This document shows positions 41,251 to 51,746 of a stretch of DNA of 64,000 nucleotides, one piece after another; position 1 is the stretch's first letter; each line of letters opens with the position of its first letter. The translations under genes were made by a program, and so were the position numbers. The notes beneath the pieces were generated by a model. The model was not told where the DNA came from. It saw only the letters and a program-made list of their open reading frames with translations, and ran no database searches. Origin of the DNA: Reichenbachiella sp. (GTDB lineage Bacteria; Bacteroidota; Bacteroidia; Cytophagales; Cyclobacteriaceae); the NCBI RefSeq assembly GCF_033344935.1, contig NZ_JAWPMM010000001.1, positions 558,001-622,000 on the forward strand, read 5' to 3'.

Positions 41251-41943
41251 ATGACTGCTACCTTCGACAGAACTAAACAACTCTTATTATTACTAGGGAT
41301 ATTATTTGTAACTCAGCAGTCAATAGCTCAAGAGTCGATCGCAACTGAGAGGCCTACCCTTTCTATTGGCCCATGGGTGTTGCCAGAGCACAGTCTACAG
41401 TGGGAACAAGGAGCGCAGTATTCTGATATTAAAGGAAATGAATGGGCTTACGACGCTTTTATTAGAGCATCTATTTCCAGGTCTACAGAAATTAGGTTTT
41501 TGGTCCCTACGCTAGAAAGCAGAGAGGTGATAGCTGGTGTAAAGTGGATGATGATGCAACCAAGAGATGGTAAATTGGGCGTTGGATTTTCTATGGATGT
41601 GGGCAATGAAGGTGGGGCCCTGAATTTGGTTGGATATAGGGTTTCACTTGAAAAGGGGTTGACTGATAATTTGACAGGCTATTTTAATACAGGGTATACA
41701 TCCGGGGGATATTTTGGTGATTTTACTCTAGCCTATGGAATAGGGGATAAATTAACTGTTACAGGCGAATATTGGCATCATGAGGATTGGAAGCAGCTGC
41801 ATACTTCTGTTATTTATTTGATCAATTCTGAAACACAAATTGATTTGAATGCCGGGTATTTATTAGATGCTGGCAATGATTATACATTCGGTTTAGGCAT
41901 TTCAAGAAGGTTCAAATACAACGGGCCAAGGAACGATGGTTAA
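41251..41943 (+). CDS. Outer-membrane beta-barrel protein (transporter/phenol-degradation MetA-like family)
   Basis: A 230-residue protein with a signal peptide (about 1-26, ending IAQ). Alternating amphipathic strands follow and the protein ends SRRFKYN, in the manner of small beta-barrels. It opens with ATERPTLSIGPWVLPEHSLQWEQG, a pattern typical of the MetA-pathway-like outer-membrane family. Function unknown. It lies 30 bases before the first of two sensor-channel genes on the same strand, so it may bring their ligand through the outer membrane (inference). Confidence 0.7.
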   Translation: MTATFDRTKQLLLLLGILFVTQQSIAQESIATERPTLSIGPWVLPEHSLQWEQGAQYSDIKGNEWAYDAFIRASISRSTEIRFLVPTLESREVIAGVKWMMMQPRDGKLGVGFSMDVGNEGGALNLVGYRVSLEKGLTDNLTGYFNTGYTSGGYFGDFTLAYGIGDKLTVTGEYWHHEDWKQLHTSVIYLINSETQIDLNAGYLLDAGNDYTFGLGISRRFKYNGPRNDG

Positions 41944-41973: not shown

Positions 41974-44082
41974 ATGATTAATCTTCGAAACAAGACTTTT
42001 ATAGTTATCACCGTTGTACTCGTTGTACTTAGCGGTTTTTTCATATATGATTTGATGAGTTATATGAATGACCGTGAGGCAAAAAGCATTCAAGTGGGTA
42101 ATGAATCGTTGCAAAAAGTTCAAAGTGAAGTCGAGGAAATTCTGAATGGTGTCATCGAAGAAGGAGCCAAACTAAAAGAGATTGTAGAAAACCAGAAGCT
42201 GACGGCAGCAGAGGTTAGAAAATTAGTCGAAACAAGTAGCAGAGATTTATTTTATCTACAAGCTGTCGCTATTGCCTACGAGCCCTATGTTTTTGATTCC
42301 ACCAAGCTTCTTTTTGCCCCATTCTATGACAAACGAAAGGGCAGAGTCATTCAACTCGAAGATAAATATGATTATACTGTAGATACTGTTTCGACTAATA
42401 TTTGGTACCATGGACCTCTCCAAAACGAAGGGCCTGAGTGGAGCGATCCGTTTTTTGGCACGGCTTCTAAAGTTTTGGTAGCTGATTATGGAGTCCCCTT
42501 TTACCTTGAGGGTTCAAGTAAGCCCTCTGGGGTCATATCTCTAATTATGGATCTGAAAAAACTGGGTGCGAAAATGGATTCGTTGGCTATTGGCTCGACG
42601 GGCACAGCCATGATTTTTTCTGAAGGTGGGCATGTGGTTGCTCATCCTATTTCTGAGTACATACTGGATGTGGATTTACAGTCCATGGCTGAAGAGTTGG
42701 GGCTGGCAGATATGGTTGATGTCATGCTATTGACTAAGGAGGGTTATACAGAATTTACCAGATATTTAGGAAGAACGGTCTATGCCTTTTATGCCGAAGT
42801 TCCGCACGTACAATGGAAAACACTTGTTGTTTTCAATTCGGAAGATTTGCTTGGGCAAGCTGAAAAATTACACTTCAAATTAATTAGACTATGTCATGGA
42901 TTGTCTGGGATAGTTTTTATGCTGTTTCTATTTATTCTCCGCCCTAAGGCAAGTATTAAGCGAAAGCTATGGTCTATATCTGTCTTTCTCTCAATTATTA
43001 TAGTGGCCAATATAATGGTGATGTGGTATTTAAACCTCAATTTCAATAGTTCTCGGGGTTCAAAGAATGAAGTATTTATTGATAGTCGAACAAGTTTGGC
43101 TGCTTTTATAAATAGTGAAAATCAGAAAGTGTCGAAGTTGGGTTTACAAAAATTTATACCCGTGGCTACTGGTATTTTTGTTGAAGAATTCGAATTTAGA
43201 GACTCCTACAATGTGATTATAAGGGGAGAAGTTTGGCAGAAATGGCCCAAGCACTTAGCAAGGTTTTATGATGCAGGTATTCGTTTTCCACAAGAGGCTT
43301 TGGCCGCAAGAACGTTGATTACAAAATTTTCGGAGCAAGAAGACAAGAATTTCGTAACACATACCTGGACTGTTAAGGTGATGCTGAAAATGCCTTTCGA
43401 TTATTCGAAGTATCCTTTTGATGTTCGGGATGTAAAGATTGAAATAATGTATCCAGATGTAGAATCAGGAATTTTGTTGGTGCCTGATGTGGATGGCTAT
43501 TCCGATATTTTTCCTTATAGTTTTCCTGGTATCAATAAAGACATCTATCTGAATGATTCGAAATTGTTGTCTACCCAATTTTCCTTCAATTTGGTGAATT
43601 TTCACGATCGATTTGGAAACAAAAGATTCAATGGCTTGAATCAGTTCCCAATCATGAAGTATTCAATTAATCTGAAAAGAAGATTATTGAATGTAATGGT
43701 GATGAATATTATTCCGATTTCAGTTGTAGCCTCAATGATTTTTCTGATTTTTTATAGCCTTACAAAAGATAAAGATGACAAGTCAGGTGTGAGTATGATG
43801 GGTGCGGTGCAAAGTTCGGCTGGCTTTTTCTTTGTACTTCTTGTAGCCCACATAGGCCTCAGGAGGCGTTTGAGTACACCTTCATTGACCTATATTGAAA
43901 GCTTTTATCTGATTATGTATGTTATTTTGGCTTTGCTCGCTATTAATGTGGTGGCATTTACTAAAAGCAAAGTTCAATCTGGACTACTGCACTATGAAGA
44001 TAATTTGATTGTTAAAGTGTCGTATTGGCCTGTGCTGTTACTAGCCTGGATGATAATTACACTTTTAGTGTTTTATAATTAG
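41974..44082 (+). CDS. dCache sensor fused to a pentameric ligand-gated ion channel, copy 1
   Basis: A 702-residue inner-membrane protein. A first membrane segment (8-27) is followed by a periplasmic dCache-type domain (about 30-298; IWYHGPLQ, WSDPFFG, PSGVISLIMDLKKL). Two membrane segments (306-324, 333-353) are joined by a Lys/Arg loop. Residues about 365-565 form a Cys-loop/pro-loop receptor ligand domain with the MPFDYSKYPFD signature at 473-483. A four-helix channel domain follows: M1 570-595 with its Pro581, M2 605-628, M3 638-662 (SLTYIESFYLI), M4 682-701. The loop charges put both sensor and receptor domains in the periplasm. It would open an ion pore on binding a ligand; ligand and ion are unknown. 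A paralogue follows after 16 bases. Confidence 0.78.
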   Translation: MINLRNKTFIVITVVLVVLSGFFIYDLMSYMNDREAKSIQVGNESLQKVQSEVEEILNGVIEEGAKLKEIVENQKLTAAEVRKLVETSSRDLFYLQAVAIAYEPYVFDSTKLLFAPFYDKRKGRVIQLEDKYDYTVDTVSTNIWYHGPLQNEGPEWSDPFFGTASKVLVADYGVPFYLEGSSKPSGVISLIMDLKKLGAKMDSLAIGSTGTAMIFSEGGHVVAHPISEYILDVDLQSMAEELGLADMVDVMLLTKEGYTEFTRYLGRTVYAFYAEVPHVQWKTLVVFNSEDLLGQAEKLHFKLIRLCHGLSGIVFMLFLFILRPKASIKRKLWSISVFLSIIIVANIMVMWYLNLNFNSSRGSKNEVFIDSRTSLAAFINSENQKVSKLGLQKFIPVATGIFVEEFEFRDSYNVIIRGEVWQKWPKHLARFYDAGIRFPQEALAARTLITKFSEQEDKNFVTHTWTVKVMLKMPFDYSKYPFDVRDVKIEIMYPDVESGILLVPDVDGYSDIFPYSFPGINKDIYLNDSKLLSTQFSFNLVNFHDRFGNKRFNGLNQFPIMKYSINLKRRLLNVMVMNIIPISVVASMIFLIFYSLTKDKDDKSGVSMMGAVQSSAGFFFVLLVAHIGLRRRLSTPSLTYIESFYLIMYVILALLAINVVAFTKSKVQSGLLHYEDNLIVKVSYWPVLLLAWMIITLLVFYN

Positions 44083-44098
44083 CTGATTGTCTATTAAC

Positions 44099-46207
44099 GT
44101 GATCTATATTAGAAGCAAGACATACTATATACTTACTGTAGCGCTCACTTTGCTCAGTTCATATTTTATCTATGATTACATGGATTATATGAATGATCGG
44201 GAAATAGAAAGTGTACGGTTGGGTCAGGAGTCATTGGAGCTTGTGCAAAGTGAAATAGCCTCCATTCTAGATGAGATAATAGTAGAAGGAGAAAAAGTAA
44301 AGAACATTGTAGAATCCCAAAATTTATCTCGGGAAGAGACTCGTGCACTAGTTGAAAATAGAAGTAGGGATTTGTTTTATCTTCAGGGCATCACAGTGGC
44401 TTATGAACCAAACGCTTTCGATAAAACAGTTGAACTTTTTGCCCCTTATTATGATAAGCGCCAAGGCAGGGTTATTCAGCTGGAAGAAAAGTATGATTAT
44501 ACATCAGATACGATTGCGACCAATGAATGGTACTTGGGTCCTCTGGATGAAAATGGGCCTCAATGGACGGATCCGTATTTTGGTATTGGCGCAAAGCTGT
44601 TGGTAGCAGATTATGGCTTGCCATTTTATCTAGATGGAGCGTCTCAGCCTTCAGGTGTCATATCTCTGACGCTTGATCTAAAGAAATTGGGTGCTAAGAT
44701 GGACTCATTAGCCGTTGGTCAAACAGGCACGATCATGGTGTTTTCTGAAAGTGGAAACTTAGTGGCACATCCAATATCTGAATATATCCTTGACCTCTCC
44801 TTACAAACAATGGCAGAAGAGCTTGGATTTGAAGAATTAGTGGATGTCATCTTATTGACCAAAAATGGAAACTTAAGTTACAGTAGATATTCGGGAAAAA
44901 AGTCATACGTTTTCTATACAGAGATTCCAAATGTGTCTTGGAAAACGCTTGTGATTTTTAACTCTTCGGATCTTCTCGGAGGAGCAAGTTTATTGCACGT
45001 CAAATTAGTACGCATATGCTTGGGCGTATCGGGTGTTATTTTCTTACTGCTGTTGCTTTTGATTAAGAAGAATGCTTCAGCGAGGAAGAAGTTGTGGTCC
45101 ATTTCAATTTACCTCTCGATTGTGATCGTTGGGAATATTGTGGTAATGTGGTATCTCAACCTGAACTATGACGATGAACGGGGGAGTGATGCTGAAGTTT
45201 TTATTGATAGCAAAACAAGTCTGGGCTCATTCATAAACAACGAAAACCAAAAAGTTGTCAAGTTGGGCTTGCAGAAATTTATTCCAGTGGCCACTGGGAT
45301 TTTTGTTGAAGAGTTTGAATTTAGAGACTCCTATAATGTCATCATCCGAGGTGAAATATGGCAAAAATGGCCCAAACAACTGGCCAGGTTTTATGACGCT
45401 GGTTTGAGGTTTCCTCAGGAAGCTCTGGCCGGTCGTACCTTGATTACAAAAATCTCCGAGAAGGAAAGTAAAAACTTCATCACTCATACCTGGTCGGTTA
45501 AGGTGATGCTCAAAATGCCTTTTGATTATTCGAAATACCCTTTTGATGTTCGAGACGTAAAGATTGAAATTATGTATCCGGATGTGGATTCGGGTATATT
45601 ATTGGTGCCAGATGTAGATGGTTACTCAGATATTTTACCTTATAGTACGCCAGGTATAAATCAAGACATTTATCTGAATGATTCTGAGCTTCTGTCCACT
45701 CAATTTTCTTTTGATTTGGTGAATTTTCATGATCGATTTGGCCATCAAAAATTTAGTGGGTTAAATGAGTTTCCGATCATGAAGTACTCCATTAATCTGA
45801 AGCGTAGGTTGTTGAATGTTCTGGTCATGAACATCATTCCCATTCTCGTAGTGGCCTCTATGATATTCCTGATTTTTTATAGTAATACAAAGGACAAAGA
45901 TGATAAATCAGGAGTGAGTATGATGGGCGCAGTACAGAGTTGCGCCGGTTTCTTTTTTGTGCTTCTTGTAGCGCATATCGATTTGAGAAGGAGACTTAAT
46001 ACGCCTTCCCTGACCTATATAGAGAGTTTCTATTTGACCATGTATGTAATTATGGCCTTATTGGCGATTAATGTGGTGGCCTTCATTAAGAGTAAGAACG
46101 AGAAAAGATTTTTACACTATCAGGACAACCTATTGGTTAAGATTTCTTACTGGCCAGTACTGCTATTCACTTGGATGATAATCACCTTATTGGTTTTTTA
46201 TACTTGA
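44099..46207 (+). CDS. dCache sensor fused to a pentameric ligand-gated ion channel, copy 2
   Basis: A paralogue of the preceding gene with the same seven membrane segments and domains in the same places. The GTG at 44099 is chosen because it gives exactly 702 residues and aligns end to end with copy 1 without a gap (IYIRSKTY against INLRNKTF); a TTG at 44087 is the alternative. By eye the channel half is much more alike than the sensor half, with near-identical stretches around KMPFDYSKYPFDVRD and M1-M3. Differences in the pore region include Ser-to-Cys at residue 615 in M2 and Gly-to-Asp at 628. Hetero-pentamers with copy 1, or sensing of two related ligands, are possible (inference). Its end overlaps the convergent potassium channel by 21 bases. 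Confidence 0.78.
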   Translation: MIYIRSKTYYILTVALTLLSSYFIYDYMDYMNDREIESVRLGQESLELVQSEIASILDEIIVEGEKVKNIVESQNLSREETRALVENRSRDLFYLQGITVAYEPNAFDKTVELFAPYYDKRQGRVIQLEEKYDYTSDTIATNEWYLGPLDENGPQWTDPYFGIGAKLLVADYGLPFYLDGASQPSGVISLTLDLKKLGAKMDSLAVGQTGTIMVFSESGNLVAHPISEYILDLSLQTMAEELGFEELVDVILLTKNGNLSYSRYSGKKSYVFYTEIPNVSWKTLVIFNSSDLLGGASLLHVKLVRICLGVSGVIFLLLLLLIKKNASARKKLWSISIYLSIVIVGNIVVMWYLNLNYDDERGSDAEVFIDSKTSLGSFINNENQKVVKLGLQKFIPVATGIFVEEFEFRDSYNVIIRGEIWQKWPKQLARFYDAGLRFPQEALAGRTLITKISEKESKNFITHTWSVKVMLKMPFDYSKYPFDVRDVKIEIMYPDVDSGILLVPDVDGYSDILPYSTPGINQDIYLNDSELLSTQFSFDLVNFHDRFGHQKFSGLNEFPIMKYSINLKRRLLNVLVMNIIPILVVASMIFLIFYSNTKDKDDKSGVSMMGAVQSCAGFFFVLLVAHIDLRRRLNTPSLTYIESFYLTMYVIMALLAINVVAFIKSKNEKRFLHYQDNLLVKISYWPVLLFTWMIITLLVFYT

Positions 46208-47050
46208 GTCGAGTTGCGAATCTACTTTTCGATGGAACCCAGCCCCACAATTCAAGCAAAACCTGGAGTGATTAGGCAGGTCTTCTTCCCCACAATTCGA
46301 ACAAGTGATAGTACCTATTCTTTTAGCATCCGCCATCATTTGGCTCGTGACTATTCCAGTAGGTACTGCAATAATTGCATATCCAAGAATCATTAATATT
46401 GATGCAGCAGTTTGACCAAAAATGGTTTGCGGAGCAATATCTCCATACCCCACTGTAGTGATGGTGACGATGGCCCAATAGATACTTTTAGGGATACTAG
46501 TAAAGCCATTTTCTCCTCCTTCGATTAAGTACATCATGGTGCCAGCTATCACCACAATACATACCACCGTACCCATGAAGACAACAATTTTATGTCTACT
46601 ACCCCATAATGCAGTACCAAGCTGTTGCGCTCCGCCCATGAAGTGAGTAAGCTTTAAAATCCTAAATACCCGAATCAATCTGAATGACCGAATAACAGAT
46701 AGTGAATGTGTGCCAACAAAGAAGAAGCTGAGATAGGTTGGTATCAATGACAATAAATCCACTATCCCCATAAAACTGGTCATATATTTTAGGGGTCTTG
46801 GAGATGATAAAATTCGAGCAAGGTATTCAATAGAAAAAAGAAAAGTAAAACCCCATTCTATCATTCTTAGTTCTTGGCCAAAATGCTCTTCAATGTCATT
46901 TACACTTTCTAACATGACCACAAGCACACTAGTAACAATAGCTACTAACAAGGCTAAGTCAAACATTTTTCCAGCAGTTGTATGATAGCCAAAGATTACT
47001 TCATGTATCTTTTGTTGCCATTTTTTCATGTTAGAATAATCTCGATCCAT
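46187..47050 (-). CDS. Voltage-sensor potassium channel with C-terminal zinc ribbon
   Basis: A 287-residue six-helix cation channel (Ion_trans family). S1 lies at about 30-50 and S2 at 65-82. S4 at about 119-136 has spaced Arg residues (RSFRLIRVFRILK). The pore carries the canonical potassium filter TTVGYGD (198-204), and S6 is at about 212-238. After S6 a four-Cys zinc ribbon (Cys 250, 253, 265, 268) replaces the RCK domain many bacterial channels have. It is convergent with the sensor-channel pair, overlapping by 21 bases. Confidence 0.92.
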   Translation of the reverse strand: MDRDYSNMKKWQQKIHEVIFGYHTTAGKMFDLALLVAIVTSVLVVMLESVNDIEEHFGQELRMIEWGFTFLFSIEYLARILSSPRPLKYMTSFMGIVDLLSLIPTYLSFFFVGTHSLSVIRSFRLIRVFRILKLTHFMGGAQQLGTALWGSRHKIVVFMGTVVCIVVIAGTMMYLIEGGENGFTSIPKSIYWAIVTITTVGYGDIAPQTIFGQTAASILMILGYAIIAVPTGIVTSQMMADAKRIGTITCSNCGEEDLPNHSRFCLNCGAGFHRKVDSQLDSSIKNQ

Positions 47051-51011: not shown

Positions 51012-51746
51012 CTACTTATTGAGTTGATCAATTTTACTAGTCATCAGATCGATCTTATGCTCTAGAGATTCTACTTTTTCCTTGAGTTCATCGATATTTT
51101 CCTGAATGTCTTCATCTTCAATAAAATAATCCGTGATTGTTCCTGTAAGTGTAGAAAACATAATCATTCCTAATAAAATCAAAGCTACACTGAGAAATTT
51201 TCCCTCGACGGTTACTGGTGGTATATCCTGGAGGAATCCTACGGTGATGGTCGTTACGGTTGTCCACCAAAGACTATCAGACATAGAAGTGATATGCGGA
51301 TTGGCATGTCTTTCCAGATGATAAAAACTGAGTGTGAAAAACAGAATGATCATCCCACTGATAAGCATCAAATTCCTGAACGTATTGAAACTGTTCTTTC
51401 TGCTAAAAGCGTTGAAAATATATTTCGCTGATCTCAGAACTCGAAGAATCCTAACCACTCTTACTATTCTACCCATACGAAGGGCTTCCACCGTTGGGAT
51501 CGAAGAAATCAAATCAATCCAATTGCCTTTGAAGTATTTCCATTTGTCATCAGATCTGAAGAACCCATTGAAAAAGTCATAGAGGAAGAGCATGCATATG
51601 GCAAAATCAATCCAAGACAGAATCTCTTTTAGCTCTGGTGGATAATCAACTATGGTTCCTACATACAATTCGATGACCACATATATGGAGAGAATAAGAA
51701 GGACAGATTGAAATCGTGATGATTTTTGGTACGCTTCAGTTTCCAT
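51012..51746 (-). CDS. Voltage-sensor-type ion channel with non-canonical filter
   Basis: A 244-residue six-helix Ion_trans protein. S1 lies at about 12-32, S2 at 46-62 and S3 at 75-85. S4 at about 90-108 is Arg-rich (RMGRIVRVVRILRVLR). The pore helix and S6 (about 183-207) follow the potassium-channel pattern. The filter, however, reads TVGFLQD (168-174) instead of TVGYGD: the second Gly is lost and one residue is inserted. The tail (about 208-244) is a heptad coiled coil likely to join subunits. Ion selectivity is therefore uncertain. The N-acetyltransferase gene starts 1 base after its stop. Confidence 0.85.
   Translation of the reverse strand: METEAYQKSSRFQSVLLILSIYVVIELYVGTIVDYPPELKEILSWIDFAICMLFLYDFFNGFFRSDDKWKYFKGNWIDLISSIPTVEALRMGRIVRVVRILRVLRSAKYIFNAFSRKNSFNTFRNLMLISGMIILFFTLSFYHLERHANPHITSMSDSLWWTTVTTITVGFLQDIPPVTVEGKFLSVALILLGMIMFSTLTGTITDYFIEDEDIQENIDELKEKVESLEHKIDLMTSKIDQLNK

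Follow-up and report, generated by a model that had tools for sequence, protein, structure and literature searches.

In 64,000 nucleotides of Reichenbachiella sp. (contig NZ_JAWPMM010000001.1, forward-strand positions 558,001 to 622,000; hereafter the window, in whose own numbering all positions below are given), we analysed two tandem genes, A and B. Sequence and fold comparison show that each encoded chain holds a dCache sensor domain together with a full subunit of a pentameric ligand-gated ion channel (pLGIC). It is likely that A and B are subunits of Cache-fused bacterial Pro-loop pentameric channels in which the Cache domain would tune pore opening through the membrane. The homology of the channel half to pLGICs is secure at the sequence level, and we infer its function as a channel. 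The pair and the parts of A are as follows.

41974 to 44082, forward strand: subunit A, 702 amino acids (aa), with a first transmembrane segment (TM1), dCache domain, TM2-TM3 hairpin, pLGIC ligand-binding domain (LBD) and helices M1-M4
42055 to 42873, forward strand: dCache sensor domain of A, residues about 28-300 (Pfam, profile against 3lib, Foldseek)
42880 to 43023, forward strand: TM2 and TM3 hairpin of A, residues 303-350, with a joint of about 10 residues (hydropathy)
43030 to 43683, forward strand: Pro-loop LBD of A, residues about 353-570 (alignments, profile, Foldseek)
43693 to 44073, forward strand: channel helices M1-M4 of A, residues 574-700 (hydropathy, profile, Foldseek)
44099 to 46207, forward strand: subunit B, laid out as A and 74% identical to it, 702 aa from a probable GTG start

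The initial annotation had described two proteins of 702 residues, and both lengths hold, that of B when it is read from GTG 44099 (N-terminus MIYIRSKTYY). The list of open reading frames starts B at TTG 44087, giving 706 aa. The GTG is probably the start of B, because it aligns with the starts of two relatives (L007 and L001b).

Homology of the channel half

The sequence features on which the channel was first recognized, MPFDYSKYPFD, an M1 proline (P581) and a TYIESFY-type M3, are all present in the proteins. A profile of 20 family sequences searched against Protein Data Bank (PDB) sequences reaches GLIC chains at 1e-7 to 1.4e-6 (best 60 of 95 matches), which we take to settle the pLGIC homology and which bears out the earlier proposal of a complete pLGIC subunit fused to dCache in one chain. 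With a channel-only profile of 26 sequences, run against the PDB at E<=10, the best 60 of 82 matches all carry GLIC-type names (2.7e-6 to 4.1e-5). In the same number of sequences, A and B included, the Pro-loop residues P481 and D483, the pre-M1 residue R569 and P581 are invariant (26/26; numbering of alignment A4 equals the A residue minus 327). The accessible sections of Tasneem et al. 2005 (PMC549065) give an acidic Cys-loop residue and a basic pre-TM residue as universal. The NCBIfam model LGIC_1 matches A at 4.4e-6 and B at 2e-7, both far under its curated cut-off of 500 bits, and at E<=0.1 it matches 9 of the 20 aligned sequences (best 1.3e-8).

We also compared folds by using two AlphaFold2 monomer models, one of the full length and one of the channel part, built from six-sequence alignments. 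GLIC and dCache structures lead the Foldseek list for the full-length model (GLIC 6zgk at 3.1e-10; dCache 3lic at 4.8e-10), and 49 of the 50 matches listed for the channel part are titled pLGICs, the remaining one being titled 'SsCl'. Secondary structure and Foldseek matches of these low-confidence models agree on a beta-sandwich followed by four helices, as the initial annotation had expected.

Several observations weigh against this assignment. The Pfam models Neur_chan_LBD and Neur_chan_memb, which had been expected to match along with the Cache models, find nothing in A or B at E<=1, and the Pfam channel models match none of the 20 aligned sequences (A and B are among them) at E<=0.1. The GLIC score of the channel-only profile (27.0 bits) is strongly corrected for composition (bias 12.3), and the register of M2 against GLIC is uncertain in that match. 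The AlphaFold2 models are weak, with mean predicted local distance difference test (pLDDT) values of 59.1 and 51.4 and predicted template modelling (pTM) scores of 0.46 and 0.39, and their template modelling scores to GLIC are low (0.18-0.45 among the matches listed). The silence of the Pfam channel models could be read to mean that the YPFD match is due to chance and that the channel half is not a pLGIC. We reject this as highly improbable, since LGIC_1, the profile that reaches GLIC, the pLGIC folds found by Foldseek and the invariant residues all point to a pLGIC. As the Pfam channel models overlook the class (0/20), Cache-fused channel proteins may be undercounted.

The dCache domain and its pocket

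The assignment of the N-terminal half to the dCache sensor domains rests on profile match, fold and its place between two membrane helices. Subunit B passes the cut-off of Pfam dCache_1 (52 against 45 bits), A stays under it (38.4 bits), and both pass that of MCP-like_PDC_1. Among the 20 aligned sequences the Cache region is present in 15 and absent in five, and dCache_1 matches 15 at E<=0.1. The family profile reaches the dCache structure 3lib at 1e-19, so that the dCache-like domain of the initial annotation is well founded.

According to the accessible text of a study of Cache ligand motifs (PMC10104139), the amino-acid motif (dCache_1AA) includes R126 and D173 of PctA, and the D173 position also occurs in amine sensors (dCache_1AM). 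We aligned the 15 Cache sequences to PctA in a register set by a weak pairwise match (E 0.12). At R126 they carry N (7), A (4), S (3) or T (1), and at D173 they carry T (12), I (1), V (1) or A (1), I and V being found in A copies; R and D are thus lost in 15/15. W128 is kept in 15/15, and the T155 position is taken by an acidic residue, D or E, in every one. An amino-acid or amine ligand for the Cache domain is therefore unsupported, within the limits of that register, and by the motifs as given in the available part of PMC10104139 the pocket looks like that of neither sensor type.

Extra membrane helices between sensor and channel

At a hydropathy cut of 1.5, A shows seven hydrophobic segments (residues 9-27, 303-321, 332-350, 574-592, 606-624, 644-662 and 682-700). 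The layout of one, two and four segments proposed at the outset thus holds for A; in B six segments were scored, and the N-terminal one peaks at 1.22, below the cut. Seven segments were found in 11 of the 13 Cytophagales-side proteins scored out of the 20 aligned sequences. TM2 and TM3, about 10 residues apart, stand between Cache and LBD. This makes it doubtful that opening is controlled by two stacked periplasmic sensor domains, as had been suggested. Because the two-helix hairpin separates Cache from LBD, Cache signals probably pass through the membrane and not via a stack of two periplasmic domains.

Five channel-only relatives, which have no Cache domain, keep TM1 to TM3, with a short loop between the first two (the TM2 peak is 1.47, just below the cut, in one of them). 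Since these relatives retain TM1-TM3, the three extra helices seem to form a separate module, and the Cache domain seems to sit in, or to have been lost from, the TM1-TM2 loop. The same five proteins, in retaining everything but the Cache domain, would suit an alternative in which Cache affects only how the channel assembles, its density at the surface or the local capture of ligand, with the LBD alone gating the pore; a concentrating or preliminary sensing role is also suggested in the accessible sections of Tasneem et al. (PMC549065). We consider this alternative unlikely, given that the TM2-TM3 hairpin links Cache to LBD and that the divergence of A from B is concentrated in exactly these two parts, Cache and hairpin.

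Divergence of the paralogues

A and B are 64.8% identical in the Cache domain and 55.8% in the hairpin, as compared to 85.8% in the LBD and 84.8% in M1-M4. Because Cache and hairpin have diverged and the LBD and pore have stayed at about 85%, the pattern would fit mixed pentamers in which one pore serves different sensors, and with them different ligands; the I or V of the A copies at the D173 position would fit the same view. The high A/B identity of the channel half might instead reflect gene conversion.

Midpoint-rooted trees of the channel and the Cache parts recover two groups of genus copies, one of four rows (channel 97/97, Cache 95/94) and one of seven rows (channel 89/95, Cache 100/100). 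A and B fall in the seven-row group, in a younger duplication common to R. faecimaris (A copies together at 93/89 and 100/98). Between the older paralogues of two genomes, M1-M4 is the best kept part, with 66-72% identity against 36-42% elsewhere.

Tentatively, these features may define a seven-helix pLGIC class in which TM1-TM3 would encircle the pore within the membrane, Cache would gate through the membrane, A and B would form mixed pentamers that share a pore with different sensors, and the helix module would be kept without Cache; we regard this broader picture as possible, and somewhat doubtful as a whole.

Proposed mechanism

In the mechanism that we favour, the pore would be made of five subunits, A only, B only or a mixture of both. 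A small periplasmic molecule would bind the Cache domain and shift TM1 and TM2, as in dCache receptors, and the movement would pass via the short cytoplasmic turn into TM3, which continues into the start of the LBD. The displaced TM3 would alter the ease of pore opening, perhaps along with a second ligand at the LBD interfaces, and the output would be ion flow. Because Cache and hairpin have diverged and the channel half has not, the A/B pair may broaden the range of molecules sensed by one pore type.

Relation to known systems

The cellular role of the bacterial relatives of nerve receptors is poorly known. With GLIC and ELIC, A and B have LBD and M1-M4 in common (with GLIC, by profile and fold); both of these channels, unlike A and B, presumably lack a Cache domain and extra N-terminal helices. 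DeCLIC is not known to have membrane helices between its N-terminal domain and the next domain. Like A and B it is a pLGIC with a large N-terminal periplasmic domain, according to the accessible parts of PMC9897478 and PMC12664993, and it is among the fold matches of our channel part. Its N-terminal domain, as far as these parts describe it, consists of two lobes resembling calcium-binding regulatory domains and is not a Cache domain, whereas the N-terminal half of A and B matches dCache structures, which sets the pair apart from the DeCLIC type. The 2025 paper (PMC12664993), in its available portion, names DeCLIC as the only pLGIC with an N-terminal domain even partly characterised.

The fusion itself, and chemosensing with direct ionic output, had been put forward by the initial annotation; both were already published. 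Previous work by Tasneem et al. 2005 (PMC549065), in the sections available, reports channels of this superfamily that carry fused 'MCP-N and Cache' domains in Cytophaga, Methanosarcina and Microbulbifer, and proposes chemoreception by ion flux for such fusions. MCP_N is counted as part of Cache in the accessible text of Upadhyay et al. 2016 (PMC4822843), a legend of which names only VWA_N and VGCC_alpha2 in its ion-channel category. A and B have the architecture of these Cache-fused acetylcholine-receptor-type ligand-gated ion channels (ART-LGICs), in which MCP-N and Cache, today regarded as a single dCache, precede an LBD and a 4-TM channel, and share with them the chemoreceptor proposal. 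Since PMC549065 already describes the Cache-channel fusion, A and B add to a kind of protein known since 2005, and the architecture is not new. On the other hand, the helix pair between Cache and LBD, the tandem copies and the paralogue divergence are features found here that go unmentioned in the accessible sections of PMC549065. Among the literature matches listed, which cover few subscription papers, PMC549065 is the sole description of Cache-fused pLGICs, and no experiment or report on their function was found.

With dCache chemoreceptors and kinases (3lib, PctA, PctD), A and B share a dCache fold between two membrane helices; the output differs, being a predicted channel and not a methylated or kinase domain, and the pocket differs from that of PctA in lacking two residues of the amino-acid motif, Arg and Asp. 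The family thus offers a well-studied sensor type fused to a pore, with natural paralogue pairs, in Reichenbachiella, through which the function of pLGICs with accessory domains would become directly testable.

Distribution of relatives

Within Reichenbachiella the Cache channel is present in 7 of 8 genomes, four of which have two copies. Across the order, 9 of 390 genomes matched: our own, two more with full-length proteins, five with the channel part only and one with Cache only. The two further full-length relatives (L002 and L003), both from Cyclobacteriaceae, show that the same architecture occurs elsewhere in Cytophagales. Three entries were handled separately: the 804-aa frame L022 (genome G056) is a Cache-region match only and stands outside the alignments, and L006 and L012 duplicate the L001 pair.

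In the phylum, matches occurred in 56 of 395 genomes, many of them on Cache alone and not counted as channels. The channel profile matched 22 of 395: our own genome, 14 genomes of one other family (f37) in which the frames are long, and seven in which every matching frame is shorter. Shorter-frame matches in this search number 11 (156-412 aa). Eight of the 14 f37 genomes with the long form were fetched, and six are in the 26-sequence alignment. By hydropathy, four of these eight f37 proteins have seven segments (one oddly placed) and four have six; seven of the eight have a Pfam Cache match at E<=0.1, none over cut-off, and one has no match. In three f37 genomes (G487, G476 and G669; loci L099, L098 and L100), frames of 358-412 aa beside the long Cache channel match the channel profile and are possibly canonical pLGICs.

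A search of 72,556 plasmid records gave four matches; the three from Vibrio span 93% of the query, and that from Acaryochloris spans 51% (channel part). The Vibrio protein has seven segments and is over the MCP-like_PDC_1 cut-off and under that of dCache_1; the Acaryochloris protein, with five segments, lacks both a Cache match and the hairpin. The latter gene (L110:2492-3952) lies on a conjugative plasmid, is annotated as hypothetical and encodes a long tail past the last hydrophobic segment.

Genomic neighbourhood

Two neighbouring genes flank the pair directly.

41251 to 41943, forward strand: 230-aa protein ending 30 bases before A, putatively secreted and barrel-like as read from its sequence, a possible partner
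46187 to 47050, reverse strand: Ion_trans/Ion_trans_2 channel with weak C-terminal zinc-ribbon matches, convergent with ORF B, the ends of the two overlapping by 21 bases

The upstream 230-aa protein has no Pfam match at E<=1. It occurs once each in 3 of 8 genus genomes, always beside the channel, and also adjoins the distant L002 channel (33% identity over 204 aa). This association, together with an aligned M2 stretch rich in Gly, Met and Phe, could indicate that the pore stays closed and that the channel fold is a non-conducting receptor scaffold, in which Cache and LBD would sense and a partner, the upstream protein for example, would receive the signal. We find this quite unlikely: M1-M4 is the part best kept between the old paralogues, as a working pore would be, and the upstream gene is missing from 4 of the 7 channel-bearing genus genomes.

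All seven channel-bearing genus genomes have the order permease, S41 peptidase, channel gene(s) and Ion_trans channel, with an FAD (flavin adenine dinucleotide) oxidase next in six; in the part of G001 that was read, no such oxidase was found. In G007, the genome without the Cache channel, permease, S41 peptidase, Ion_trans channel and FAD oxidase are still together, and for this reason we regard these four genes as background synteny. The adjacent Ion_trans channel, whose orthologue is present in 8 of 8 genus genomes, G007 included, was not used as evidence of a partner. Scans for promoters and terminators yielded no excess over shuffled sequence.

Ordinary chemoreceptors are present in the same genome too, as indicated by six MCPsignal matches over cut-off and seven dCache_1 matches, including A and B, two of which are over cut-off. 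Two other genus genomes (G002 and G003) carry a frame of 364-365 aa right after the channel gene (L010:3619-4716 and L007:398-1492); one of these frames matches Porin_O_P weakly (0.006, under cut-off), and the other has no match. A second channel of the Ion_trans family lies at 51012-51746 on the reverse strand (Pfam E 7.5e-20) and is about 25% identical to the first.

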